DNA of 35,843 nucleotides from an uncultured SAR116 cluster alpha proteobacterium. GTDB lineage: Bacteria; Pseudomonadota; Alphaproteobacteria; Puniceispirillales; Marisalimonadaceae. A program made the position numbers and the translations under genes. This document shows positions 871-20,242 of this stretch, piece by piece; position 1 is the first letter of the stretch; the number at the start of each line of letters is the position of its first letter. The stretch is from positions 1-35,843 of the forward strand of contig CACNGC010000017.1 in NCBI GenBank assembly GCA_902619805.1. The letters run 5' to 3'. The notes beneath the pieces are model-generated. The model made no database searches. It had not been told where the DNA came from and saw nothing but the letters and a program-made list of their open reading frames with translations.

Positions 871-2661
871 ATGGCACGACGCAAAACCATAAGATTTGGT
901 GATTACATACAAGCAATGTCGATCGACAGTCAAAAAGTTCCATATCAAGAATTAATGCCAGAACCATTGTTTGATCGTCATGGTAATGAACATCCACAAC
1001 CTGTTCCAAAAATGAAATTGGGCGGTGGTGATATATTTAAAATTCTGCAACCATATTTGTCCACACGATTTATTGATCAGGCACGTGCAGTTGTTCCACT
1101 TGCAATTTATTTGGGACTATTCCAATATTTAGTTCTTCAAACACCTGTGATGGACGCAAGTATCATTGCAGGCGGATTATTTGCTGTTATGATCGGTTTA
1201 ATGATGTTTATGGAAGGCTTGAAGCTTGGTCTTATGCCTTTTGGTGAGATAATTGGTAATACTTTGCCTCGTAAACTACCATTGGCTGGAGTACTATTTA
1301 TCGCATTCTTATTAGGGATAGGTGTGACATTTGCCGAGCCAGCAATTGGTGCATTACAGGTAGCTGGATCAATTGTTAATCCAGATCAAGCACCTTATTT
1401 ATTTACACTACTCAATGATCGATCTGGTGCGACTGTTTTACTAGTTGGACTTGGCGTTGGTTTGGCAGCCGTTTTGGGTACAGTAAGGTTCTTACGTGGC
1501 TGGAGTTTAAAGCCAATGATTTTTATGAGTGTTACCCCTACTTTGATTTTGAGTATAATTGCTTTCATGGACCCTGAACTAACTAAAATTGTTGGTTTAG
1601 CCTGGGATTGTGGGGCAGTTACAACTGGTCCAGTAACAGTGCCATTAGTCCTTGCACTTGGTATTGGTGTCGCTGCAGCAGCCGGTAAAGGTGCGGATTC
1701 TTCATTATCTGGATTTGGTATTGTGACGTTGGCATCAGTGTTCCCAATTCTGGGCGTATTGATACTAAGCTTTTACACTGCTTATACAGTCCCTGCAGAA
1801 GTCATTATCGAAAAGGCAGCTGAAATAAAATTGGCCGCTCAGACTGCAACCTCTCAACCACAATGGTATGAAGTCACCCCTTGGACTGAAGTAATTTTAG
1901 GTGTGCGAGCCATTGTACCATTGGTGATTTTCTTAGCAGTGGTGCTTTTAGTGATTTTAAGAGAAAAATTGAAAAATGCCTTCATCACCTACTATGGAAT
2001 TATACTAGCAGTCGTTGGAATGTGTATTTTTAACATCGGTTTAACCTACGGTTTAGCAAAACTCGGAGATCAATCGGGTGGATTGATCGCAGGTGCTTTT
2101 ACATCAATTGATGCAATCACAGCAAGTCCGCTTTATAGCATGAGTGTCGGTGTTGGGATTGCAGGTTTGTTTGCTTGGGTTCTTGGTCTTTCAGCTACTC
2201 TTGCAGAACCCGCTCTAAATGCCCTTGGGATGACAGTCCAGAATTTAACAAACGGTGCATTTAAAAAATCCATGTTAATGATAGCTGTAGCATTTGGTGT
2301 GGGTACTGGCATTATGCTAGGTGTTTTGAAGCTTATATATGGATTTCATATAATGTACATTTTAATACCTGGATACACCCTTGGATTGATATTAACCCTT
2401 TTATCGACTGAAGAATTCGTTAATGTTGGTTGGGACTCTGCAGGTGTGACTACTGGGCCTGTAACTGTTCCATTAGTGCTTGCGATGGGTCTAGGATTTG
2501 GAAATGCGCTTGGCTCAACAGACGGATTTGGAATTTTGGCTGCAGCATCAATTTGCCCTATTGTCGCAGTTTTGACACTTGGTATTTATGTACAATTTAA
2601 AGTAAAACGTGAGGAGCGCCGCGTTGCTCGTGAGCTTGCTCTTGAAGGAGAAAAAAAATGA
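871..2661 (+). CDS. DUF1538-family polytopic membrane protein, two tandem repeats
   Basis: 596 residues: a hydrophilic N-terminus (about 1-60), then two homologous hydrophobic halves. Each half carries the same motif pair: TFAEPA (153-158) and WDCGAVTTGPVTVP (245-258) in the first, TLAEPA (443-448) and WDSAGVTTGPVTVP (521-534) in the second. A charged loop (about 305-340) separates them and the C-terminus is basic. This tandem architecture and the AEPA and TTGPVTVP motifs fit DUF1538 (PF07556), a family without an established function as far as I know. The duplicated halves suggest a pseudo-symmetric transporter or channel. A good Shine-Dalgarno (TAAGGA, 859-864) fixes the start. Its stop overlaps the start of a PII-like gene by four bases, implying translational coupling and PII-type control of transport. 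Substrate cannot be read from the sequence. Confidence 0.85.
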   Translation: MARRKTIRFGDYIQAMSIDSQKVPYQELMPEPLFDRHGNEHPQPVPKMKLGGGDIFKILQPYLSTRFIDQARAVVPLAIYLGLFQYLVLQTPVMDASIIAGGLFAVMIGLMMFMEGLKLGLMPFGEIIGNTLPRKLPLAGVLFIAFLLGIGVTFAEPAIGALQVAGSIVNPDQAPYLFTLLNDRSGATVLLVGLGVGLAAVLGTVRFLRGWSLKPMIFMSVTPTLILSIIAFMDPELTKIVGLAWDCGAVTTGPVTVPLVLALGIGVAAAAGKGADSSLSGFGIVTLASVFPILGVLILSFYTAYTVPAEVIIEKAAEIKLAAQTATSQPQWYEVTPWTEVILGVRAIVPLVIFLAVVLLVILREKLKNAFITYYGIILAVVGMCIFNIGLTYGLAKLGDQSGGLIAGAFTSIDAITASPLYSMSVGVGIAGLFAWVLGLSATLAEPALNALGMTVQNLTNGAFKKSMLMIAVAFGVGTGIMLGVLKLIYGFHIMYILIPGYTLGLILTLLSTEEFVNVGWDSAGVTTGPVTVPLVLAMGLGFGNALGSTDGFGILAAASICPIVAVLTLGIYVQFKVKREERRVARELALEGEKK

Positions 2662-3017
2662 AACGTTCATTTACCACATTAACTGAAGCAACACTAATTA
2701 CTGCAGTTGTTCAACATGGTTATGGGGAGATCATTACTGACGCTTTACTAGAGGTAGGAATTCAAGGATCAACCGTGCATGGGGCAATGGGTGTAGGAAT
2801 ACGTGAAAGATTAGGAGCTTTGGGTGTTGCTGTAGATGCCGAAAGAGATGTTGTCAATGTGATGGTTTCAAGTGATGAAGTAGATAGAGTTTTTGAACGA
2901 ATGTTTTTAGCTGGAAAGTTGGATACGCCTGGTATGGGTTTCATGTACGCCACTCCTCTAATGCAGGCTGCCACCTACGTTCCACCTTCCATTTTATCTA
3001 AATATGTAGGTTCATGA
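2658..3017 (+). CDS. PII-like signalling protein, first copy
   Basis: 119 residues. The pattern ITAVVQHGYGEIITDALLEVGI (residues 14-35), a variable loop, then VVNVMVSSDEVDRVFERMF and GKLDTPGMGFMY (86-97) matches the beta-alpha-beta / T-loop / beta-alpha-beta ferredoxin-like fold of GlnB/GlnK, the last segment standing where PII has GKIGDGKIFV. PII trimers bind ATP/ADP and 2-oxoglutarate or other effectors and gate transporters such as AmtB. Here the T-loop-equivalent stretch (about 41-61) has no Tyr, so classical uridylylation is unlikely. A strong Shine-Dalgarno AAGGAG (2645-2650) lies inside the end of the DUF1538 gene. Coupling to that gene makes its product the obvious partner. PII-like superfamily assignment is fairly confident; ligand unknown. 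Confidence 0.75.
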   Translation: MKRSFTTLTEATLITAVVQHGYGEIITDALLEVGIQGSTVHGAMGVGIRERLGALGVAVDAERDVVNVMVSSDEVDRVFERMFLAGKLDTPGMGFMYATPLMQAATYVPPSILSKYVGS

Positions 3018-3018
3018 C

Positions 3019-3405
3019 ATGATTTTTCCTGAAATAAAAACAGACCCTAGGGTACACTATCTTGATTACACTTGGTTAATTTCAGGTATATTGTATGAAG
3101 GTGGTACAGACAAGTTAATTCCTGAAATAATGAAACGTAATATCAATGAAGTTTACTTTTACAACGTGGCTGGAACGATGATCGGACAGAAAACTGTTGC
3201 AGGTGTTTCAGGTTCTTTTGATGTAGAACAATTTCATGTTGTAGTAACAGCTGACCAAGCTGAGAATATATTCGATTTTATTTATCGCTTTTGCGACTTA
3301 TCAGAGCCAAATAAAGGAATAATCTATATGAACAAACTGAAGAAATCCACTAAACATGAACTTCAGGATGATGATCACACAGAGTTAGAGGAAATTACAG
3401 TATAA
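3019..3405 (+). CDS. PII-like signalling protein, second divergent copy
   Basis: 128 residues, one base after the previous gene's stop. WLISGILYEGGTDKLIPEIM (19-38) resembles the first beta-alpha unit of PII; a loop follows (about 50-68), then FHVVVTADQAENIFDFIYRF (72-91) resembles the second unit, and NKGIIYMNKL (98-107) the segment after it. The C-terminal tail (110-128) is strongly acidic. It is too diverged from the upstream copy to be a recent duplicate, so the two may form a hetero-trimer or read different ligands. Known: PII proteins control membrane transporters by inserting the T-loop. Inferred: this copy also acts on the DUF1538 protein. It could instead be another ferredoxin-like-fold protein. 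Confidence 0.6.
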   Translation: MIFPEIKTDPRVHYLDYTWLISGILYEGGTDKLIPEIMKRNINEVYFYNVAGTMIGQKTVAGVSGSFDVEQFHVVVTADQAENIFDFIYRFCDLSEPNKGIIYMNKLKKSTKHELQDDDHTELEEITV

Positions 3406-3416
3406 CAGGTGAAACC

Positions 3417-4169
3417 ATGGCAAAAAAAACTGATTTAATATCTGAAAATAAAACAAATATTCGTAAGAACAGACGTAGGATTTTTGAGCTGGATGCAGAA
3501 GTGTCCACGACATACGCTGAACTCATGCTATTACTAGCTGATATTGAAGAAAATCGTTCGTTACTACAAAGAAATTTTACCTCTGCCTTTATGGGCAACC
3601 GATCAATAGCTATTGACAATGTCAATGATCTGTATGGTTGTCGAATGGCAATGCTTGAAGCACTGGAGCCATCATCTGATGTTCAAACTAATTTCAAGGT
3701 ACGGATGTTAAATCAAGTAAGGATTGAACAACTTGAAAACCGTACTGATCTCAACGATACTTTACGTGACATCGCTACAAAAATGATTGAAGTGAATCAA
3801 ATGTTGCAATCAGTTAACAGTTTGATCACTGAAGCTAATGAGTCAGTAGTTGAACAAGGTGACACCATGATTTCTGAGAATGCTGATTGGGCTGATGGTT
3901 CGATTGCTAAACAAATGAGAAAGGCAACTTCAAATGCAAATGCGCAATTTGTAAAATCTAATACCGAACGATTAGAAAAACTATTAGAAAGAACAAATAC
4001 TGCAGAAAATGAAGCTTCTAATTTGGTAAATCGTGTTGAGGATGATACAAAAGGCATCTTAGAACTCGGTGATGATATTGCTAAACGACGTGAACGCATA
4101 CAAGCTGATCGCGAACGTGTTGTAGCAAACCAGAGACGTACTGCAGATCTACTAATTAAATTAAGATAA
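3417..4169 (+). CDS. Coiled-coil protein of unknown function, last gene of DUF1538/PII cassette
   Basis: 250 residues, starting at the ATG after AGGTGAAACC, 11 bases past the second PII-like gene. It has no signal peptide and no membrane segment. Long heptad-like helices rich in Glu, Arg, Asn and Leu cover about residues 15-60, 95-135 and 170-245, the last ending in a basic stretch (DIAKRRERIQADRERVVANQ). An NRSIAIDNVNDLYG segment (about 61-74) interrupts the helices. I do not recognise the family. Spacing, strand and shared composition place it in the same transcription unit, so a structural or adaptor role for the transporter and PII proteins is plausible but only inferred. Confidence 0.75.
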   Translation: MAKKTDLISENKTNIRKNRRRIFELDAEVSTTYAELMLLLADIEENRSLLQRNFTSAFMGNRSIAIDNVNDLYGCRMAMLEALEPSSDVQTNFKVRMLNQVRIEQLENRTDLNDTLRDIATKMIEVNQMLQSVNSLITEANESVVEQGDTMISENADWADGSIAKQMRKATSNANAQFVKSNTERLEKLLERTNTAENEASNLVNRVEDDTKGILELGDDIAKRRERIQADRERVVANQRRTADLLIKLR

Positions 4170-4458: not shown

Positions 4459-5116
4459 GTGCTGCTTAAGCACTACGGAGGTAAGCTAAAAGTGTCCAGA
4501 ATAACCTTAAGTTTTATTGAAAGAGTATTAGCTGTGTTGCTTAACACATTATGCTCTGGATGGGTACACAAAAATTATGGAAGAATTTATATGGTTGATC
4601 CGCTTCTCATTGATAGTTGGTGTGAGTTGCCAACATATAATTTACTACAGTGGAAATTTTTACGCAGGAGAGTGGGATATATTATGCAAAGATTTGACGG
4701 ATATAAAAAATTTTCAATATACGTATAGTCGATATGTAGATGGGATAGATTGGAGCGATACCGGATCATTTGAGCATATGAAGCAATTTATAGAAAGAAA
4801 TGGGTCTTTTGATGGCTGGCAAAGCGACACTAAGTCAATCGTTGAAAGACACCGACAATTGGATAATTTATATGATTCTGTGAAAAGAGAAGGTCGGCTC
4901 AAATTCCCCTTTGAGGTTAAGCCTCTTGATTATCGTGTTGACGAGGCAATATGCGGTTTGATGACTCGTTCAGGCAAGTTGGTGTTCGGTGGTGCTGGGC
5001 AGCACCGACTTGCTATTGCACGGATATTGAAAATTAAGTTAATACCAATATATCTTGCGGCAGTACATGTAGAAAGAAAAAGTGATTGGCAAGAATATCT
5101 AGAACGGTATCTTTAG
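4459..5116 (+). pseudogene. ParB/sulfiredoxin-fold-like protein gene, frameshifted
   Basis: Two overlapping frames seem to encode one protein. The first (GTG 4459 to 4728) contains GRIYMVDPLLIDSW; the second (ATG 4577 to stop 5116) contains GNFYAGEWDI, RHRQLDNLYDSVKREG and a ParB-like motif GGAGQHRLAIARIL followed by KIKLIPIYLAAVHVERK. Island-type ParB-fold proteins usually have a 'VDP..I' segment shortly before the 'G.FxGEWD' segment, so a single-base shift at about 4640-4665 would restore a protein of about 215 residues. The C-terminal frame alone is 179 residues and could still be translated. Function is unknown; the GxHRxxxA motif is the only strong clue. Its 3' end overlaps the truncated end of the integrase remnant on the other strand. 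Confidence 0.5.
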
Positions 5117-5751
5117 CACACTATCCTCGCCGTTCTTAGTATCTTTAACCTTAAGCAGACGAATATCAAAGTCGACATATTTGCACATAAACTTAACCAT
5201 CTCTCCTTGATGCAATCCTGTTTCAATGGCAATGAATATCAATAGCCTGAGTTTACTTTTGTCTCTGTAAATCCATGCAAAATGACATTGAGTTCGTCCT
5301 TTCCTGGCTTGTATCTCGAGGTTTATTAAGCCTTGGCTTGGATAACAGATCAACAGGATTGGTAGGCGGGTAATACCCCCACTCTATTCGTGCTAACTCA
5401 ATACAGTGCCTTATAAACGTAAAGTCATATATGATGGTTCTTGTACCATCAACTAGCCTAACTTTTTTATAACTCGATATGATTGTTGAAGTTAAATTAC
5501 TTAAGCTAACAACTGATATAGCCCACCTAAGTAGGGTCTTAATCATCCATGTCTCTTGATAATGGCTCTTTTTTAGAAGAATAACTCCTATAAGTAACGT
5601 TTAAGTAATCTTCCAAGGTTACAGACTTATCATCAAAACCAAAAAGACCTGGATCTAATTCTTTCAACTTCATAACGGCCCATCTCAGGGAGTCTTGTTT
5701 AACTGATAATATTTTAGATTGTGATGGATGACTGCGCTTATACCCTAACAA
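5099..5751 (-). pseudogene. Tyrosine recombinase/integrase, degenerate and truncated
   Basis: Three minus-strand frames read as consecutive parts of a phage-type integrase. 5751-5539 gives an N-terminal region with SVKQDSLRWAVMKLKELDPG. 5546-5253 gives the core-binding region FTFIRHCIELARIEWG then NPVDLLSKPRLNKPR. 5353-5099 gives the start of the catalytic domain, LLIFIAIETGLHQGEMVKF and VKDTKNGEDSVLKIPF. Frameshifts fall near 5540 and 5285. The catalytic Arg of the TGxRxxE box is His here (TGLHQGE), and the HxxR and Tyr motifs are missing because the frame ends after the first catalytic block. Its N-terminus faces the 3' end of tRNA-Pro, the usual place for an island integrase. It is certainly non-functional as written. 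Confidence 0.8.
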
Positions 5752-5871
5752 ATCATCTATAATCTCTTATTATTATAAACGCCTTTATGCAACTCTTTGG
5801 ATCAAGTGATTACATTTGAAATAAAGTAGAGAAAAAAAATTAAAGTTACATTTAATATCAAAAAATTATGT

Positions 5872-5948
<77 letters not shown>

Positions 5949-10251: not shown

Positions 10252-10572
10252 GTGGAATTGATATTAGATATTTTCACAGGCATTTGTTTTTTTATTGGTT
10301 CTCTGTCTATTATAATTGGTGCTTGTGGACTTATTAAGCTACCAGATGTATTTTCAAGAATTCATGCCGCTGGTATGATTGATACTGGCGGTACAGCGTT
10401 TTTTATTTTAGGGATGATATTTCAAACTGGTTGGTCATTGATAACCGTTAAGTTGATATTAATTGGTGTGTTCATTTTTTTTACTAGTCCTGTAACAAGT
10501 CATGTAACAGCAAATTTAGCAAGGCAAAAAAATATACTTCCACTAGGGAAAAAGATTGGAAAAATTTTATGA
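10252..10572 (+). CDS. mrpG: Mrp-type antiporter subunit G
   Basis: 106 residues with three membrane helices. It begins with GTG (10252) two bases after mrpF, preceded by the GGAG near 10235-10245. The PhaG/MnhG pattern is clear: GLIKLPDVFSRIHAAGMIDT, then LILIGVFIFFTSPVTSHV. The subunit is part of the membrane arm of the antiporter. Its end overlaps the next start by four bases (ATGA). Confidence 0.93.
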   Translation: MELILDIFTGICFFIGSLSIIIGACGLIKLPDVFSRIHAAGMIDTGGTAFFILGMIFQTGWSLITVKLILIGVFIFFTSPVTSHVTANLARQKNILPLGKKIGKIL

Positions 10573-11147
10573 TTTCTGAACTATTAATAAATGCTTTTTT
10601 AGTGACAATTATGCTCAGTATCGCAATAGCTTTAATTAAAACTAGAACTGTTATATTTACCGTAATTTTGACAAGTGCTTATTCTCTAGTAGCGGCATTA
10701 ATGTTTATAACATTAGATGCAGTAGATGTTGCATTTACAGAAGCATCAGTTGGCGCAGGAATCTCTACTATCCTATTTTTAGCAGCTATGGCTTATTTGC
10801 CCAAAAAAGAGGAAGAGAGCATTAGTAGTGAAGTTATTCCGGCACTTTCTTGTATAATTCTTGGAGGAATATTAATCTGGTGTAGTTTTGATTTACCAGA
10901 AATTGGTCAGTTAACAGCTCCAATTCACCAACATATTGCACCTGAATATATTAGAGGATCTAAGGAAGATATTGGTATTCCAAACATAGTTACTTCAGTA
11001 TTGGCAAGTTACAGAGGTTACGATACTTTTGGTGAAACAATAGTTGTTTTTACTGCAGGAGTAGCTGTACTTGCCCTTCTAGAGAAGAAAAATACTACTA
11101 AAAAGAATAAATCTCAACCCAAACAAGAGATTAGAAAAAATGCATAA
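10569..11147 (+). CDS. MrpA C-terminal-like / MbhD-MbhE-like subunit (DUF4040)
   Basis: 192 residues. The first part (TVILTSAYSLVAALMFITLD then AVDVAFTEASVGAGISTI) is the DUF4040/MbhD domain. The second (VTSVLASYRGYDTFGETIVV then TAGVAVLALL) matches the MbhE/MrpA extreme C-terminus. In classical Mrp operons these domains are fused to the C-terminus of the large MrpA; here they stand alone as in Mbh-type complexes and split-MrpA operons. It overlaps mrpG by four bases and mrpB by eight. The protein is membrane-embedded and presumably joins the D-type subunits to the B/C/E/F/G module. Confidence 0.85.
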   Translation: MISELLINAFLVTIMLSIAIALIKTRTVIFTVILTSAYSLVAALMFITLDAVDVAFTEASVGAGISTILFLAAMAYLPKKEEESISSEVIPALSCIILGGILIWCSFDLPEIGQLTAPIHQHIAPEYIRGSKEDIGIPNIVTSVLASYRGYDTFGETIVVFTAGVAVLALLEKKNTTKKNKSQPKQEIRKNA

Positions 11148-11568
11148 TAATCCGATTTTGAGAATTTCTACTAAAATACTTTTTGCACCTATCATACTTT
11201 TTGGACTTTATGTACAATTTCATGGAGATTTTGGTCCTGGAGGAGGCTTTCAAGCTGGAGTAATTGTTGCTAGTGCATTTATCCTATATTCTCTTGTATT
11301 TGGTATTGAGGCAGGCAAAAAACTGTTTCCACCAAACGTTAATTTGATATTACTGGCTTTAGGCGGAATCGTCTATGGTGGTGTTGGCATTGTTTCAATG
11401 ATATTAGGAGATGAGTTTTTAGCGTACAATATACTTGGTTCTTCTCCACAATCCGGTCAGCACATTGGTATACTGTTAGTTGAATTTGGTGTTGGCTTAA
11501 CAGTTTCAAACGTAATGATTGCACTTTTTAACGCTTTCGCTAGTTATGACAAAGTAAAAGAGAAATAA
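11140..11568 (+). CDS. mrpB: Mrp-type antiporter subunit B
   Basis: 142 residues with four hydrophobic helices. The MnhB signature is obvious: LFGLYVQFHGDFGPGGGFQA (about 21-40), then GVGIVSMILG and GVGLTVSNVMIALFNAF. The N-terminal 'NPILRISTKIL' also matches the family start. It overlaps the DUF4040 gene by eight bases and is followed by mrpC after one base. It is a membrane subunit of the antiporter. Confidence 0.94.
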   Translation: MHNNPILRISTKILFAPIILFGLYVQFHGDFGPGGGFQAGVIVASAFILYSLVFGIEAGKKLFPPNVNLILLALGGIVYGGVGIVSMILGDEFLAYNILGSSPQSGQHIGILLVEFGVGLTVSNVMIALFNAFASYDKVKEK

Positions 11569-11569
11569 A

Positions 11570-11983
11570 ATGATTTCTTCAACAATTGGCATTTGGAATT
11601 ACTGGATAGTTTTTTGTCTAATGATGATTGGTTTATTTCTGGTAATAGGGAGAAAAAATTTTTTAAAAAAAATTGTTGGACTAGCTATCTTTCAAACATC
11701 TGTATTTCTACTCTATATAACTTTTGGAAAAATCAAAGGAGGCACACCTCCGATTTTAAATGAATCTATTGACACTATTTATTCAAATCCTCTTCCTCAT
11801 GTATTGATACTAACAGCTATTGTTGTTGGTGTAGCAACAACAGCTTTGGGATTATCTTTAGTGTTAAGAATTAACTCAGAATACGGCAGTATTGAAGAAG
11901 ATGATGTATCTTCACAAGATCTTTTAGATTATCACGATGACATTGAAACTGGCAAAAATTTGGGTTTGAAGTTTAAGAAATGA
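11570..11983 (+). CDS. mrpC: Mrp-type antiporter subunit C (NuoK-like)
   Basis: 137 residues. Three membrane helices fit the NuoK/MnhC fold: WIVFCLMMIGLFLVIGRKNF, VGLAIFQTSVFLLYITFG, then DPLPHVLILTAIVVGVATTA-type sequence (NPLPHVLILTAIVVGVATTA). A hydrophilic tail (about 105-137) follows, as in many MrpC proteins. NuoK-type subunits take part in proton translocation. It ends overlapping the mrpD start by four bases. Confidence 0.93.
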   Translation: MISSTIGIWNYWIVFCLMMIGLFLVIGRKNFLKKIVGLAIFQTSVFLLYITFGKIKGGTPPILNESIDTIYSNPLPHVLILTAIVVGVATTALGLSLVLRINSEYGSIEEDDVSSQDLLDYHDDIETGKNLGLKFKK

Positions 11984-13467
11984 TAGACATTTTAATGAAA
12001 AATCTTCCAATTATTGTCGTTTTATGTCCATTAATGATGTCTTTATTAGTTGTGCTTATTCCTAATATATTTTTTTCATGGGCTTTAACAACTTTAAGTA
12101 CTTTTTTAACATTTTTATTTTCGATTTTATTATATCAAGAAATTCAAATTCATTCTCATATTTCTTATGCTTTAGGCAAATGGATGCCACCAATAGGAAT
12201 AGAATATATTATTGATAAGGTAGCAATAATTCCAATTATAATAATCTCAGGTATAAGTTTTTTAGCAACCATATTTGCTTATAAGATAATGCCTGAGGAA
12301 ATAGAAAAGAAATCAATTTCTAAAGTTTATAGTTTATGGCTTTTAGCTATAGCAGGCTTACTGGGTCTTGTAACTACAGGCGATGCATTCAACCTCTTTG
12401 TTTTTTTAGAAATTTCATCTCTAGCCTCTGTTGCTCTTGTAGCAATGGGCGCTCATAAAGATAAACAGGCTTTGGTTGCCGCTTATAATTACCTTATCAT
12501 AGGCGCAGTAGGGGCAACATTATATGTAATAGGTGTGGGATTATTATACGGCGTAACTGGCACTTTAAATATGGAAGACCTAACAAATAGAATTACTGAT
12601 CTCAAAAGCAACAGAGCATTAATCGCAGGTTTTGGTTTTATGATAGTTGGGATTATGGTTAAAGCAGCTGTTTTCCCATTACATATTTGGTTACCACGAG
12701 CATATGCTTATGCTCCATCTGCAGTATCTGTATTACTCGCTGCAACAGCAACAAAAGCTTCTTTGTATATACTAGCTCGCATATTATTTTCTATTTTTGA
12801 AAATTCAGAAAATTTAATAAATAACACTTTATTGTTTGTTATACTTCCACTTTCACTATTAGCTATGTTTGCTGGCACAATTATGGCCATTTATGAGAAG
12901 GATATTAAAAGGTTACTAGCTCATTCTTCAGTTGCTCAAATAGGATATATAACTCTAGCTTTTGCTATTGGAACAAAAGCGAGTATAGCAGCTGGTTTTA
13001 TACATATGTTTAATCATGCGATTATTAAAGGTGGTTTGTTCATAGCTATAACTACAATTAGTTTCTACATTAAAAGAAGAGTTACTATTAATAATTTATC
13101 TGGCCTTGGTAGAGAAATGCCTATCACTTTTTTTTGTTTTGTCCTTTGTTCATTAAGCCTAGCAGGCCTACCACTTACAGCTGGATTTATTTCAAAATTA
13201 TATTTAATCAAAGCATCTATCAGCTCAGATGGTATATGGTTAGCAATACTCATTTTAATTAGTTCAGCATTATCAGTTGTTTATTTGTGGAAAATAATAG
13301 AAGTCATGTGGATGCGTGAGGGAAAAAAAATTGTAAAAAAAGAAAACCCAACAATTTATATATCACTTATTATTATAACTTTTCTAAATATTTATTTTGG
13401 TCTAGATGCCTCATTAGTTGTAAACGGAAGTTTTGAAGCCGCTGATAAATTAATTGGGGATCTATAA
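11980..13467 (+). CDS. mrpD: Mrp-type antiporter subunit D
   Basis: 495 residues and about 14 membrane helices, full length for MrpD/NuoM-like subunits. The key Glu in helix 5 is present (FNLFVFLEISSLASVALVAMG). The central Lys motif is present as MVKAAVFPLHIWLPRAYAYA with SAVSVLLAATATKASLY, and a second loop IYEKDIKRLLAHSSVAQIGY is canonical. Such subunits carry out proton or cation movement in the antiporter. It begins in an ATGA overlap with mrpC and its stop shares bases with the next start. Confidence 0.93.
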   Translation: MIDILMKNLPIIVVLCPLMMSLLVVLIPNIFFSWALTTLSTFLTFLFSILLYQEIQIHSHISYALGKWMPPIGIEYIIDKVAIIPIIIISGISFLATIFAYKIMPEEIEKKSISKVYSLWLLAIAGLLGLVTTGDAFNLFVFLEISSLASVALVAMGAHKDKQALVAAYNYLIIGAVGATLYVIGVGLLYGVTGTLNMEDLTNRITDLKSNRALIAGFGFMIVGIMVKAAVFPLHIWLPRAYAYAPSAVSVLLAATATKASLYILARILFSIFENSENLINNTLLFVILPLSLLAMFAGTIMAIYEKDIKRLLAHSSVAQIGYITLAFAIGTKASIAAGFIHMFNHAIIKGGLFIAITTISFYIKRRVTINNLSGLGREMPITFFCFVLCSLSLAGLPLTAGFISKLYLIKASISSDGIWLAILILISSALSVVYLWKIIEVMWMREGKKIVKKENPTIYISLIIITFLNIYFGLDASLVVNGSFEAADKLIGDL

Positions 13468-14924
13468 TGATAACAATTGAAAATTTTATATTAATTACAA
13501 TTTTATCACCTCTAATCGTTTGTGTTTTAACTCCATTCACTTCAAAAAATACAATTTTGAGAGATTTCTTGGGACCAATTGGCGGTATTATTAGTTGTTG
13601 GGGCGCATTAAATATTATGAGCTCAGTACTCAACAATCAAAATACCACTTTAGAAATTGTTAAAATAGCTGAAGGAATATCAATTGGTTTTGAAATCACA
13701 CCCTTAGGTGCTATTTTTGGACTGGTTGCATCATTTTTGTGGATTTTTGCAGCTATCTATTCAATAGGCTACATGAGGGGAAATAAAGAAAAAAATCAAA
13801 CAAGATTTTATGCATTTTATGCAATGGCTGTTCATGCCGCTTTATGTATTGCTTATGCTAGTGATTTATTAACATTATTTATCTTTTATGAAGTTCTTAC
13901 ATTTTCAACATATCCTCTAGTTACTCATAATCAAAATGAAATGGCTCAAAAAGCTGGTCGATTATATATGTCCATATTAGTTGGATCTTCTGTTATATTA
14001 CTTCTCCCAGCAATTATTTGGGTTTGGGTTGCTACAGGTTCTTTAGAAATGTCCCAAAATGGTGTTTTAGACGGAAAATTAGATGTAGCCTATGCACCAC
14101 TATTATTAGCAATGTTTGTTTTTGGAATTGGAAAGGCAGCACTAATGCCAATTCATAAGTGGTTGCCTGCTGCTATGGTTGCTCCAACACCTGTATCCGC
14201 CCTTTTACATGCTGTAGCAGTTGTAAAAGCGGGTGTATTTACAATGTTAATAGTGCTGACAAATGTTTTTGGAATAGATTTTTTAGCCAAAACAGGTGCA
14301 TCAGAATGGCTAATCTGGTTAGCATCTTTTACTCTTCTAGCAACAAGTATAATAGCCATTTATAAAGATGATTTAAAAGCAAGGCTGGCATATTCAACTA
14401 TTAGTCAACTTTCTTATATTACATTAGGAGGAGCATTGGCTACTTCAATGGCAACACAAGGCGCGGCTTTACACATAATTACACACGCTGCTGGTAAAAT
14501 TACTTTATTTTTTGTAGCAGGAGCTTTGTATGTTGGAGCAAAAATTACAAAAATTTCAGATTTGAATGGTCATGGCATAAGTGCGCCACTAATTTTTCTT
14601 GCTTTTTTTGTTGGTTCACTCTCAATAATTGGTGTTCCTCCAATGGTAGGTTCTTGGAGTAAATTCTTCTTAATGTTAGGTGCAGCAGACAGTGGTTATG
14701 TAGTTGTTATGGGTGTTTTTTGCATATCTACTATACTTAATGCATTTTATTTGATGGAAATCCCTGCTAGAGCATTCTTTTTTAAAAAAGAAAGAGAAAT
14801 CAATATAAAAATACCAAAACTTATTTTAATCCCAACTCTAATAACTTCTTTTTTAACTATTTTATTATTCTTTTTTATAGAACCATTTCAAAATCTAACT
14901 TCTATCATTGTGAGTAGGATATGA
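13467..14924 (+). CDS. Second D-type (NuoL/MrpA-N/MrpD-like) antiporter subunit
   Basis: 485 residues, polytopic, of the proton-conducting quinone-oxidoreductase membrane family. The helix 5 Glu is present (LLTLFIFYEVLTFSTYPLVT) and the central Lys/His block is KAALMPIHKWLPAAMVAPTP followed by VSALLHAVAVVKAG. IYKDDLKARLAYSTISQLSY is the usual cytoplasmic loop. Databases often name this type 'monovalent cation/H+ antiporter subunit D family'. Because no full-length MrpA exists in the operon, this protein probably fills the MrpA N-terminal position, together with the separate DUF4040 subunit. It is coupled on both sides by start/stop overlaps. Confidence 0.88.
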   Translation: MITIENFILITILSPLIVCVLTPFTSKNTILRDFLGPIGGIISCWGALNIMSSVLNNQNTTLEIVKIAEGISIGFEITPLGAIFGLVASFLWIFAAIYSIGYMRGNKEKNQTRFYAFYAMAVHAALCIAYASDLLTLFIFYEVLTFSTYPLVTHNQNEMAQKAGRLYMSILVGSSVILLLPAIIWVWVATGSLEMSQNGVLDGKLDVAYAPLLLAMFVFGIGKAALMPIHKWLPAAMVAPTPVSALLHAVAVVKAGVFTMLIVLTNVFGIDFLAKTGASEWLIWLASFTLLATSIIAIYKDDLKARLAYSTISQLSYITLGGALATSMATQGAALHIITHAAGKITLFFVAGALYVGAKITKISDLNGHGISAPLIFLAFFVGSLSIIGVPPMVGSWSKFFLMLGAADSGYVVVMGVFCISTILNAFYLMEIPARAFFFKKEREINIKIPKLILIPTLITSFLTILLFFFIEPFQNLTSIIVSRI

Positions 14925-15148
14925 AGTACTTAATTGAAAAATTTGGTAAAATAAATACCTCAGTGCTTTTTCTCTGTATAATTTTTCTAATTTTAGAATT
15001 AATTGGACATAGGCATGGAGAAACATCAATAGAAGATATTTTATTTTTTCCAGCTTTTTTTGGATATGTGTCATGCATAGTTATTTTTAAAATTGGTGTT
15101 AGTTTACGATCATTCCTTATGAAAGACGAAGATTATTATGATAAGTAG
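14921..15148 (+). CDS. Small membrane protein of the Mrp operon, unknown function
   Basis: 75 residues with two hydrophobic segments (about 13-30 and 42-66) separated by a short HRHGETSIEDI loop. The C-terminus is charged (MKDEDYYDK). The DEDYYD ending and the His-rich loop recall a small protein that I believe is commonly encoded between two D-type genes in proteobacterial Mrp-like operons, but I cannot name it. It overlaps the preceding gene by four bases and the next by eleven, so it is almost surely translated with them and a structural or assembly subunit. Confidence 0.75.
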   Translation: MKYLIEKFGKINTSVLFLCIIFLILELIGHRHGETSIEDILFFPAFFGYVSCIVIFKIGVSLRSFLMKDEDYYDK

Positions 15149-16835
15149 CTTTCCTCCAGGTTTAATAATGATGATTGGGGCATTGTTAATCCCCTTCTTA
15201 CCTCATATTATTAGACAAATATATATGATGGCTTTAATCCTACTATCAGCTTACGCATTAACATTAGGTTTTGGTATACACTCTAAAATTGATGTAATGG
15301 ATTTTGAATTCATAATATTTCAATCAGATTCCTTAACCTTACCCTTTGCAATAATATTTCACATCGCAGCAATATTAAATGTCATTTATGGCGCTCATGA
15401 AAAATACTGGAATCAGCATGTAGCAATTATGAGTTACAGTGGAGCTGCGATTGCAGCAGTTCATGCTGGAGACTTATTCACATTATTTATTTGGTGGGAA
15501 GCTACAGCATTTACTTCAGTTTTTCTGATTTTAGCAAGTAAAACCCAAAGATCTTATAAATCAGCATTTAGATACATTTTAATTCAAGTTGGTTCTGGCA
15601 TGTTTTTATTAGCAGGAGCAATTTTATTAATGTCTGAAACTGGTAGTGCTGAATTTAAAAATTTTGATATTAATTCCCTTTATGGACAATTAATTTTCAT
15701 AGCTTTTGGAATAAAAGCAGCTTTTCCATTGTTAAATGGCTGGTTACAGGATTCTTATCCAGAAGCCTCAGAGATAGGTACAGTTGCTCTTTCAACATTT
15801 ACAACTAAATTAGCTATTTTTTGTTTTGCCAAATCTTTTGCGGGTACTGAAATACTTATCATAATTGGTGCAATTATGACCTTTTATCCTATCTTCTTTG
15901 CAGTTATTGAAAATGATCTACGAAGAGTTTTAACATACAGCCTTAATAACCAACTTGGCTTTATGATAGTTGCAATTGGAATTGGTACTGAATTAGCTAT
16001 TAATGGAGCTGTAGCTCATGCCTTTGCTCATATTCTTTATAAAGGTTTACTATTCATGGGAATGGGAGCAGTTCTGTATAGAATAGGAACATGTAAAGCA
16101 TCTGAATTAGGAGGGCTATTTAAATTTATGCCAATTACTGCGATATGCACTATAATTGGTGCTATATCCATATCAGCTTTTCCTTTATTTAGTGGATTTG
16201 TTGCAAAATCACTCATAATGTCAGCACTAGGCAAAGAAGGACTAGTTTTTGTCTACTTTATGCTTTTATTTGCATCTGCTGGTGTACTTCATCATTCTGG
16301 AATTAAAATTCCATTTTTTGCTTTTTTTGCTCATGAAAGTGGTATTAAAACAAAAGAAGCTCCATTAAATATGATAATTGCAATGATTATAGCATCTACT
16401 CTTTGTATATTAATTGGAGTTTTTCCTTCTTATTTCTATGAAATTTTACCCTATCAAATTCAATATCAGCCATATGACTTTAGCCACGTTGTTGGACAGT
16501 TGCAACTTTTAACATTTGCTGCATTTGCATTTATATGTTTATGGCATTTCAAAATCTATCCTCCAGAGCTAAACTCAACTGTTTTAAATAGCGACTGGAT
16601 TTATAGAAAAATGATACCAGGGGTTTTATTACCTCTTTTAATTCTTATTCATAATATCAATAAAAAAATTGAACAATTAATTGGATTTATGTTTATGCAT
16701 ATTAGAAAGTTTTTTGCTAATACAATGATAAAAAACAAAGTTTTTGATAGAGAAGTTGGTCAAGATACTTTAATAGTTGTACAACTTTTTATAATTTTAT
16801 TAATTTTCATCTTTGTATGGAAAATTTATTTATAA
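15138..16835 (+). CDS. Third D-type antiporter subunit, divergent
   Basis: 565 residues, longer than the other two, with a C-terminal extension carrying a final helix (about 540-563). It belongs to the NuoL/M/N-MrpA/D family: DLFTLFIWWEATAFTSVFLI keeps the helix 5 Glu, and VIENDLRRVLTYSLNNQLGF is the conserved loop. In the central motif the usual 'PLHxWLPxAY' is 'PLLNGWLQDSYPEAS', so the His is lost while the preceding Lys (GIKAAF) is kept. It may therefore have a specialised or structural role. It is translationally coupled to the 75-residue gene upstream and is the last D-type subunit. Confidence 0.87.
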   Translation: MISSFPPGLIMMIGALLIPFLPHIIRQIYMMALILLSAYALTLGFGIHSKIDVMDFEFIIFQSDSLTLPFAIIFHIAAILNVIYGAHEKYWNQHVAIMSYSGAAIAAVHAGDLFTLFIWWEATAFTSVFLILASKTQRSYKSAFRYILIQVGSGMFLLAGAILLMSETGSAEFKNFDINSLYGQLIFIAFGIKAAFPLLNGWLQDSYPEASEIGTVALSTFTTKLAIFCFAKSFAGTEILIIIGAIMTFYPIFFAVIENDLRRVLTYSLNNQLGFMIVAIGIGTELAINGAVAHAFAHILYKGLLFMGMGAVLYRIGTCKASELGGLFKFMPITAICTIIGAISISAFPLFSGFVAKSLIMSALGKEGLVFVYFMLLFASAGVLHHSGIKIPFFAFFAHESGIKTKEAPLNMIIAMIIASTLCILIGVFPSYFYEILPYQIQYQPYDFSHVVGQLQLLTFAAFAFICLWHFKIYPPELNSTVLNSDWIYRKMIPGVLLPLLILIHNINKKIEQLIGFMFMHIRKFFANTMIKNKVFDREVGQDTLIVVQLFIILLIFIFVWKIYL

Positions 16836-17658: not shown

Positions 17659-19284
17659 ATGACTAATAGAGAGATAATGGAATATGACGTTGTTGTAGTA
17701 GGAGCGGGGCCTTCTGGACTAAGTGCTGCTATTAAATTAAAACAACTAACTAAAGAATCTAATAAGGAGCTATCAGTTTGTGTGATTGAAAAAGGATCAG
17801 AGGTTGGAGCACACATTGTATCTGGTGCAGTTATTGAAACTAAAGCGTTAGACGAACTTATACCAGACTGGAAAACAAAAAATAGCCCATTAAAAACTGA
17901 AGCAAAAAATGATAAATTTTTATATCTTACTGAGACTAAATCATATCAACTACCTACCCCTCCGCAAATGCATAATAAAGGTAACTACATAATTAGTTTA
18001 AGCGATTTTACTAAATGGTTAGCTCAACAGGCTGAAGAACTTGAAGTAGAAATTTATCCAGGTTTTGCTGCATCAGAAGTGCTTTTTGATGAAAATAATA
18101 AAGTTTTAGGTGTAGCAACTTGCGACATGGGAAGATTAAAAGATGGTTCTGAAGGGCCTAACTTTGAAAAAGGTATAGAATTACGAGCTAAACAAACAAT
18201 ATTTTCTGAGGGTTGCAGAGGTCATCTAGGAAAAATTTTAATGGAAAAATTTAATCTTAATTCAGACAACTCTCCACAAACTTACGGTATTGGAATAAAA
18301 GAATTATGGGAAGTGACACCTGAAAACAGTAAACCAGGGAGTATAATGCACACCACAGGATGGCCTCTAGATAATGATACATACGGTGGATCTTTTTTAT
18401 ATCATTTGGATAATAATAAAGTATCAATAGGTTTCGTAATAGGTTTAGATTATAAAAATCCTTATTTATCTCCGTATCTTGAATTTCAACGCTTCAAACA
18501 TCATCCAGCAATAAAGAAACTACTTGAGGGTGGAAGAAGGATTAATTACGGTGCAAGAGCATTAAATGAAGGTGGGGTTCAATCTTTACCAAAATTGACT
18601 TTTCCTGGTGGAATTTTATCAGGCTGTGAAGCTGGTTTTCTTAACGTACCAAAAATTAAAGGAACCCATCTTGCAATGAAATCAGGCATTATTGCAGCAG
18701 AATCAATTTTTGAAAACATAGATAAAAATGATGAAATATTAGAGTACGAAAGCTCTATTAAGAAAAGTTGGTTATGGAAAGAATTATACAAAGTAAGAAA
18801 TATTAGACCTTCTTTTAAATGGGGTTTCTGGAAAGCAATATTTTATAGTGCTATTGATACTTATATTTTTCGTGGAAATGCACCTTGGACAATCGATCAC
18901 CATGGAACTGATCACGAAAGTCTTGGTAACAAACATGATTACAAAGAAATAAACTATCCAAAACCTGATAATGTAATAAGCTTTGACAGACTTACAAATG
19001 TTTCTTTTTCAGGGACAAATCATGAAGAAAATCAACCTTGTCATTTGCAGTTAAAAGACGAGAAAGTACCAATAAATACTAATTTTGAATTATATGACAA
19101 TCCAGAGACAAGATATTGCCCAGCTGGCGTATATGAAATAGTTTTAAATGATAATAAACCAAAACTACAAATCAACGCACAAAATTGTGTTCACTGTAAA
19201 ACATGTGATATCAAAGACCCAACTCAAAATATTAATTGGGTAACACCTCAAGGTGGAGGTGGTCCCAATTACCAAGGAATGTAA
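17659..19284 (+). CDS. Electron transfer flavoprotein-ubiquinone oxidoreductase
   Basis: 541 residues, normal length for ETF-QO (ETFDH). The N-terminal FAD site VVGAGPSGLSAAIKL (13-27) is canonical, EKGSEVGAHIVSGAVIE follows, and the central GGSFLYH and SGCEAGFLNVPKIKGTHLAM blocks are typical. The C-terminal 4Fe-4S domain is intact: RYCPAGVYE, then NCVHCKTCDIKDPTQNINW, ending in GGGGPNYQGM. The enzyme passes electrons from acyl-CoA and amine dehydrogenases via ETF to ubiquinone at the inner membrane. ATG 17659 follows TTTAAGGC; an ATG at 17677 (residue 7, MEYDVVVVG) is also possible. No ETF genes are in the window. Confidence 0.97.
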   Translation: MTNREIMEYDVVVVGAGPSGLSAAIKLKQLTKESNKELSVCVIEKGSEVGAHIVSGAVIETKALDELIPDWKTKNSPLKTEAKNDKFLYLTETKSYQLPTPPQMHNKGNYIISLSDFTKWLAQQAEELEVEIYPGFAASEVLFDENNKVLGVATCDMGRLKDGSEGPNFEKGIELRAKQTIFSEGCRGHLGKILMEKFNLNSDNSPQTYGIGIKELWEVTPENSKPGSIMHTTGWPLDNDTYGGSFLYHLDNNKVSIGFVIGLDYKNPYLSPYLEFQRFKHHPAIKKLLEGGRRINYGARALNEGGVQSLPKLTFPGGILSGCEAGFLNVPKIKGTHLAMKSGIIAAESIFENIDKNDEILEYESSIKKSWLWKELYKVRNIRPSFKWGFWKAIFYSAIDTYIFRGNAPWTIDHHGTDHESLGNKHDYKEINYPKPDNVISFDRLTNVSFSGTNHEENQPCHLQLKDEKVPINTNFELYDNPETRYCPAGVYEIVLNDNKPKLQINAQNCVHCKTCDIKDPTQNINWVTPQGGGGPNYQGM

Positions 19285-19327
19285 TTTTAAAACAATTAGT
19301 TAGACTTAACTTAATTATTTAATTAAC

Positions 19328-20242
19328 ATGATAAATAAAATAAGGGATTTTGATTTGAATCAATCTTTACTCGGTATTTTGTGGATGATAATTACTACAA
19401 TTTTTTTTGTAGGTGTTACAGCTACAGTAAGATATTTAGAAGGAGAGGTACCTGCACCGCAGGCTGCTTTTTTAAGATATGCAATAGGGACAATCCTATT
19501 AATTCCTTCATTGATCTCACTCATGAAATTCAGACCTCATAAACCTTTGATGAAAAAATTTATTTTAAGAGGATTTGTTCACTCTATTGGTGTTACTTTA
19601 TGGTTCTATGCTATGTCTGTTATGCCCGTCGCAGAGGTGACAGCAATTGGTTTTTTAACATATATTTTTGTATCGTTTGGAGCATGTTTTATTTTAAAGG
19701 AAACCCTACATAAACACAGGCTATTAGCAATAATAATATCTTTTATTGGCGCTCTTATAATTTTAAGACCAGGTTTTAAGGTAATTGAAAGTGGTCAAAT
19801 AAGCATGTTATTAGCAACTGTAGTTTTCACTATGTCTTATCTAATTGCTAAAATAGTATCGAAAGAAAGAACCTCTTCTGAAATTGTTGCAATGCTTTCT
19901 ATTTTTACAACAATATTTTTAATTCCGTCCGCAATTTATAGTTGGGAACCTCTTTCAATTGAAGCTTTATTAATACTTACTGTCACTGCTATAATAGCGA
20001 CTATTGGACATATAACTATGACAAAAGCCATAAAAGTAGCGCCGATGGTAGTTACTCAGCCTATATTATTTTTACAACTTGTATGGGCATCTATGGTAGG
20101 TTTATTTATCTTTGATGAAAAATTTGATCCTTTTGTAATTTTAGGAGGCACAATAATAATGATGTGTGTCTGCTATGTTTCTTTCAAAGAACACAAATTA
20201 GATAAAATTAATTCAAATGAAAATTTACAAAAAGTAATTTGA
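19328..20242 (+). CDS. EamA/DMT-superfamily transporter
   Basis: 304 residues with about ten membrane helices in two EamA repeats. First-repeat features include TATVRYLEGEVPAPQAAFLR near the N-terminus and VMPVAEVTAIGFLTYIFVSF; the second repeat has IATIGHITMTKAIKVAPMVV and a C-terminal ILGGTIIMMCVCY helix. These proteins usually export metabolites or amino acids across the inner membrane; the substrate cannot be predicted. Its 3' end overlaps the 3' end of the convergent permease gene by 35 bases (20208-20242). Confidence 0.9.
   Translation: MINKIRDFDLNQSLLGILWMIITTIFFVGVTATVRYLEGEVPAPQAAFLRYAIGTILLIPSLISLMKFRPHKPLMKKFILRGFVHSIGVTLWFYAMSVMPVAEVTAIGFLTYIFVSFGACFILKETLHKHRLLAIIISFIGALIILRPGFKVIESGQISMLLATVVFTMSYLIAKIVSKERTSSEIVAMLSIFTTIFLIPSAIYSWEPLSIEALLILTVTAIIATIGHITMTKAIKVAPMVVTQPILFLQLVWASMVGLFIFDEKFDPFVILGGTIIMMCVCYVSFKEHKLDKINSNENLQKVI

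Follow-up and report, generated by a model that had tools for sequence, protein, structure and literature searches.

Control of ammonium and bicarbonate transport is a classic task of PII proteins, and in the SbtA-SbtB system a PII protein is encoded beside the transporter that it gates. The same arrangement is described for AmtB-GlnK, where the PII gene lies next to that of the PII-gated transporter. NifI1 and NifI2 are two diverged PII homologues that are encoded in one operon and act on one target, which is nitrogenase and not a transporter (PMC8809328). PII-NG is a PII protein linked to cation/proton antiporters of the CzcABC metal type, with an RND efflux pump as its partner and one PII gene in the described operon (PMC7726332). 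On the side of the transporters, UmpAB of Halomonas zhaodongensis was reported as a Na+(Li+,K+)/H+ antiporter of two components, and co-expression of umpA and umpB alone gave Na+/H+ antiport in E. coli (PMC5484666). The 4.2-kb insert had no ORFs beyond ORF1 to ORF4, of which ORF3-4 were umpAB, and a text search of that paper found neither PII nor P-II named (PMC5484666). Here we describe a gene cassette in a 35,843-nt stretch of DNA (the whole of which is called the window) from an uncultured SAR116 cluster alphaproteobacterium, contig CACNGC010000017.1, in which a gene for a DUF1538 membrane protein is followed by genes for two PII-like proteins, PIIa and PIIb, and for a coiled-coil-like protein. 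A PII gene adjoins DUF1538 in nearly all loci compared, and we think it likely that the PII pair is a dedicated sensor that switches a cation/proton antiporter.

All four genes lie on the + strand, at 871..2661 (a fused, UmpA-UmpB-like DUF1538 membrane protein, 596 amino acids), 2658..3017 (PIIa, 119 amino acids), 3019..3405 (PIIb, strongly diverged from PIIa, 128 amino acids) and 3417..4169 (the coiled-coil-like protein, 250 amino acids). The coordinates of the open reading frames (ORFs) bear out the tight linkage claimed in the original prediction, with an overlap of 4 and gaps of 1 and 11 bases. UmpAB is the nearest described relative of the membrane protein, as both belong to the same Pfam family and consist of two homologous halves with seven transmembrane segments predicted for each UmpAB half (PMC5484666), but the halves are two proteins in Halomonas and are fused in the window. 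Identity between the window protein and split UmpB-type proteins from other genomes is about 27 to 31%. In contrast, the transporters of AmtB-GlnK and SbtA-SbtB are of an unrelated family, and Pfam finds only DUF1538 here and no Amt channel. DUF1538 loci further differ from those two systems in having two unlike PII proteins, a PII with a CBS-domain protein, or a chain of several PII domains, and in the lack of the T-loop Tyr. The partner also sets the window apart from PII-NG, since it is DUF1538 in place of an RND pump.

The linkage between DUF1538 and PII is very widespread. The named loci were the best 80 of at least 590 confirmed matches; they were selected with the DUF1538 query, and PII played no part in the choice. 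In all 80, an ORF matching the PII profile ended within 2.5 kb downstream of DUF1538, and there were no further PII-profile ORFs in these loci on either strand (1.12 Mb). A chance neighbourhood was rejected on these two results. Among the genomes near to that of the window, DUF1538 was present in 20 of 101 (own included), and PIIa and PIIb stood beside it in 20/20, with flanking contexts that differed among the 20. In Pseudomonadota, the phylum of the window, DUF1538 was matched in 126 of 398 genomes (own included), and PII adjoined it in 44 of the 45 other genomes with an assessable locus. These 45 comprised the 30 best scorers (30/30), three more (3/3) and 12 further genomes, ten lower-scoring and two high (11/12), with the contig-end fragments of G256 and G318 outside the 45. 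Bacteroidota gave a DUF1538 match in 10 of 247 genomes, nine of them over the cut-off and with PII beside DUF1538 in 9/9; no PII stood beside the sub-threshold match in G719 or beside a fragment at a contig end in G498. Four of the nine plasmid matches were opened, and all four records had an adjoining gene annotated as a P-II family nitrogen regulator; two of the four are from Clostridia. Thus, the claim of a conserved four-gene neighbourhood holds across phyla for DUF1538, PIIa and PIIb, and fails for the coiled-coil gene, which is optional.

PIIa matched Pfam P-II on its own (27.3 bits versus a cut-off of 25, E 4.6e-6), as did 38 of the 40 aligned members of its family at E 0.01, and the family profile found the PII structure 6yc6 in the PDB at 4.2e-8. 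PIIb itself had no Pfam P-II match and six of the 37 members of its family had one. Comparing the PIIb and PIIa family profiles by hhalign gave a probability of 99.65 (E 4.7e-25), and the best match of the PIIb profile among solved PII proteins was 9p1x_H at 1.9e-6. The entry 9p1x contains two kinds of PII chain, which we take to be NifI proteins. Judged by Pfam for PIIa and by the family profiles (hhalign, PDB) for PIIb, both proteins belong to the PII superfamily, in agreement with what had been read from their layout. They also lack the Tyr used for uridylylation, as first noted for the two proteins of the window, and this extends to their families, with no Tyr at T-loop position 51 in any of the 40 PIIa or 37 PIIb rows. 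In the alignment, the T-loop of PIIa is shorter than in the canonical PII proteins of the same genome, of which there are two, encoded apart from PIIa and PIIb.

The roles of Tyr51, K90, R101, R103 and the glycines of the nucleotide pocket were assumed to be those of canonical PII proteins. PIIa retains G35, G37 and G89 in 40/40 rows, G87 in 39/40 and T29 in 33/40, and PIIb retains G89 in 37/37, G35 in 25/37 and G37 in 14/37. Both differ from canonical GlnB and GlnK in having neither Tyr51 nor K90, R101 and R103 (0/40, 0/37). With the frame of the pocket kept in PIIa and the contacts to the triphosphate lost, the ligand is probably unlike that of GlnB. Nitrogen regulation of the canonical PII kind was considered and is unlikely, since these four residues are missing and the genome has its two canonical PII genes besides.

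A second regulatory module beside the first PII is usual, though not near-universal. Of the 80 named loci, 72 had a single-domain first PII, and a second PII ORF (E 0.01) was found in 69 of these. The exceptions were L091, where the contig ends, L107, where the PII gene is interrupted by a run of N, and L122, where none was found. The remaining eight loci had one long PII chain. From the window's phylum 17 loci were sampled, 15 of them with split DUF1538 genes, and a CBS-domain protein followed PII in 13, an assignment that was checked with Pfam on four loci. The 11 PII-positive loci among the 12 further genomes of the phylum had a second PII ORF in nine cases and a CBS ORF in two. None of the nine Bacteroidota loci had fewer than two PII domains: four loci had them on two genes, and the other five in a single chain, with two domains in three of these loci and three domains in two. 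On the plasmids, the Peptoclostridium chain had two PII domains, the equally long Vescimonas chain had one that was recognised, and the other two records had a single PII. In a few marine loci, cNMP-binding genes adjoin the DUF1538 cassettes.

Chains of about 370 amino acids with three PII domains stand beside DUF1538 in L141, L144, L147, L150-L154 and L195. All three domains were visible to the PII profile in L144 (from a Flavisolibacter metagenome-assembled genome of the Bacteroidota), L151 and L195, and six more long chains align with that of L144 over the full length at 22 to 27% identity. Such chains may be covalent PII trimers, three being the subunit number of the PII trimer. The predicted structure of the L144 chain had a predicted template-modelling score (pTM) of 0.78, from only 8 sequences, and in Foldseek stretches of about one domain matched PII chains with a probability of 1.00. 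The Treponemataceae genome of L141 (G499) also has, on contig C48 and apart from the triple-PII chain, a 231-residue frame with two PII matches. In L230, L244 and L257 (G238), a fused DUF1538 gene, a PII, a CBS and a second PII gene and then a split DUF1538 pair were seen on one strand. A DUF1538-DUF1538-PII set (L155) was found on a Chelativorans plasmid typed as conjugative.

The membrane protein matched PF07556 in two stretches with 329.6 bits (gathering cut-off 22.6, E 8.3e-99). It was predicted to be duplicated, and the repeats support this, with AEPA at residues 155-158 and 445-448 and TTGPVTVPLVLA at 251-262 and 527-538. The NCBIfam model for UmpA (NF041627) covers residues 66-300 with 216.8 bits (equivalog cut-off 490) and that for UmpB (NF041628) residues 345-582 with 165.9 bits (equivalog cut-off 500). 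The UmpA cut-off was reached by 0/398 genomes of the phylum sample, so the search of this sample did not turn up the locus that had been characterised in Halomonas. A structure predicted from 40 sequences (predicted local distance difference test score, pLDDT, 85.1; pTM 0.84) shows each half with seven long helical spans, as many as were predicted for each UmpAB subunit (PMC5484666), and the odd number would imply an inverted repeat. Helices in each half of the model are broken at A-E of the AEP motif (155-156 and 445-446) and at TTGPV (251-255 and 527-531). E156, D246, E446 and D522 were invariant in 40/40 fused DUF1538 proteins, and E446 and D522 in all 13 rows of an alignment that included seven split UmpB-type proteins; this invariance makes them candidate ion-coupling residues. 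When the model was searched against the PDB, there were 0 matches at E <=0.001 (best E 0.045, probability 0.28). A sequence search of the PDB gave nothing convincing, and no DUF1538 relatives were found in the viral contigs searched.

The substrate, which the original prediction had left open, can be narrowed, as the split form, UmpAB, has been described as a Na+(Li+,K+)/H+ antiporter (PMC5484666). DUF1538 also stands in a table of key families for pH adaptation (PMC13255231). An alternative that is compatible with PII gating is that DUF1538 in this clade moves another cation or an H+- or Na+-coupled solute, whose metabolic state the PII pair would sense. This would fit with the missed equivalog cut-offs and with a predicted fold that has no PDB match to hint at a substrate, and UmpAB is the sole assayed member in the DUF1538 literature searched, as far as its available text goes. 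However, the helix-break motifs and the four acidic residues, all invariant in 40/40 fused proteins, with two of the residues shared by the split UmpB-type proteins, speak against this, and we regard a different substrate as rather unlikely.

For the locus as a whole, we favour as likely a reading in which PIIa and PIIb form a dedicated sensor, probably a mixed trimer, that reads adenine nucleotides and docks on the DUF1538 cation/proton antiporter and switches it. The DUF1538 protein would be a secondary antiporter equivalent to a fused UmpAB-like pair, and the sensor a cytosolic one of two unlike subunits, which would fit a transporter with two differing halves. Docking would be on the cytosolic side of the antiporter, in the manner of GlnK and AmtB. 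The expected direction is inhibition, when the adenylate signal marks a rundown of the proton gradient as costly, although this direction is a guess. An adenylate signal is proposed mainly because PII, CBS and cNMP domains, all of them nucleotide-binding types, recur beside DUF1538. Antiport by UmpAB in E. coli from two genes alone indicates that transport as such can do without PII, in keeping with a regulatory role for PII; with only the DUF1538 pair needed, a dedicated PII would most likely regulate after synthesis, by docking. The near-constant adjacency suggests that the exchanger, probably one of sodium for protons, is switched by the energy state of the cell. The closest parallel for two unlike PII proteins on one target would be NifI1/NifI2. 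The core of the original prediction, that a PII-like pair belongs to the DUF1538 transporter, is by sequence comparison strengthened well beyond the first reading, with gating as its putative part.

Several results weigh against this reading. The phosphate-contacting K90, R101 and R103 are absent from 40/40 PIIa and 37/37 PIIb rows, which makes ATP binding of the usual kind doubtful. The window protein falls below both NCBIfam equivalog cut-offs, for UmpA and for UmpB. In G345, whose DUF1538 pair is on a 3.6 kb contig, neither PII nor CBS was matched in the 3.4 kb examined. The second module was not recognised in 4 of the 17 sampled loci, in L122 or in the two single-PII plasmid records. For the triple-PII model, the Foldseek matches to PII have E-values near 0.001, and 5f9p, which ranked first, is a non-PII chain with a low TM-score. 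Finally, linkage by itself is also compatible with a role as a subunit or in assembly.

That last point leads to a further alternative, in which the PII-like proteins are no ligand-driven switches but belong constitutively to the DUF1538 transporter, as subunits for its structure or stability. The very wide linkage and the loss of the canonical phosphate-binding side chains would both fit such subunits. In contrast, UmpAB was functional in E. coli without PII (PMC5484666), the glycines of the nucleotide pocket persist in PIIa, and the second module is often a CBS or another PII domain, both of nucleotide-binding types. We consider constitutive subunits improbable. It is very improbable that the PII proteins act on another target, such as an enzyme or a transcription factor, with co-expression as their only tie to the transporter, since DUF1538 is the constant partner across phyla and the remaining neighbours vary by locus.

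If the PII pair does gate the antiporter, PII control would reach beyond nutrient uptake to the balance of ions and pH, and the possible real job of many proteins annotated as nitrogen regulators would be explained. It would also open a way into a transporter family that had no solved relative in the PDB searches. The tie is near-obligate and spans Pseudomonadota, Bacteroidota and Clostridia. We give about even chances to the broader proposal that DUF1538 transporters across phyla form one whole class of antiporters gated by PII, with a fold that the PDB does not yet contain, in which adenylates couple ion exchange to energy charge through a dedicated, often asymmetric PII sensor. The sensor would pair PII with PII or with CBS, or would be a single chain of two PII domains or of three, the three-domain chain being a covalent PII trimer. 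No DUF1538-PII link was described in the available text of the DUF1538 and UmpAB literature searched, a body that takes in the papers on cable bacteria that name UmpAB, does not extend to PMC6440370, which also names it, and leaves most subscription journals outside its scope. The single PII/P-II text match among the DUF1538 papers sits inside a sequence motif, and no paper in the literature searched had DUF1538 together with the phrase "P-II family nitrogen regulator". Borrelia BB0017 was considered as a relative and rejected, as the PII-like membrane protein there is DUF2179, a different family (PMC6516651).

The coiled-coil protein had no Pfam match over the cut-off and no convincing PDB match. 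Its gene directly followed PIIb in 12 of the 80 named loci, eleven with an intact and one with a split copy, in records named SAR116, Planktomarina, IMCC14465, Oxalobacteraceae and Burkholderiales, and of the 20 near genomes that have DUF1538, 13 carried it in the cassette. Within the order of the window, 25 of 136 genomes had a homologue, 16 in the cassette and nine in stretches without DUF1538 or PII. A role as the core of the system was rejected on this partial presence and on the homologues away from DUF1538 and PII. The protein is an accessory of some lineages, possibly a scaffold. Diverged homologues in L213, L214, L216 and L218 lie off the cassette, a few kb from ORFs that by eye resemble cNMP-binding genes.

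The shared composition of the cassette genes was confirmed, with a guanine-plus-cytosine (GC) content of 0.41 for the DUF1538 gene, 0.34 for PIIb and 0.37 for the coiled-coil gene and a third-position GC of 0.25-0.28; these figures cover three genes, the 119-residue PIIa gene being below the length limit of the ORF listing. For comparison, the 28 ORFs of the window from 6010 on had GC of 0.24-0.35 and third-position GC of 0.13-0.26. The nearest named relatives are SAR116-cluster alphaproteobacteria, at 98% identity. Comparison with six near relatives showed purifying selection on the cassette genes, with a ratio of nonsynonymous to synonymous substitution rates (dN/dS) of 0 to 0.12. In four remoter relatives the synonymous sites were saturated, except for one dN/dS of 0.17 at dS 2.8. 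Downstream of the cassette, at 4577-5948, are an orphan ORF (179 amino acids) and apparent fragments of a broken tyrosine integrase beside tRNA-Pro, the integrase label resting on one weak Pfam match (0.0059). The integrase-like fragments, the tRNA-Pro, the raised GC and the patchy occurrence among near genomes (20/101) together suggest that the cassette arrived horizontally.

Elsewhere on the same contig, the window holds a cluster resembling an Mrp-type multi-subunit Na+/H+ antiporter at 10569-16835, with MnhB, Proton_antipo_M and related domains. At 17659-20242, ETF-QO and EamA genes adjoin each other. In L035 and L036, the DUF1538-PIIa-PIIb cassette lies between what seems to be the same ETF-QO/EamA pair, the genes of these relatives being judged by eye.

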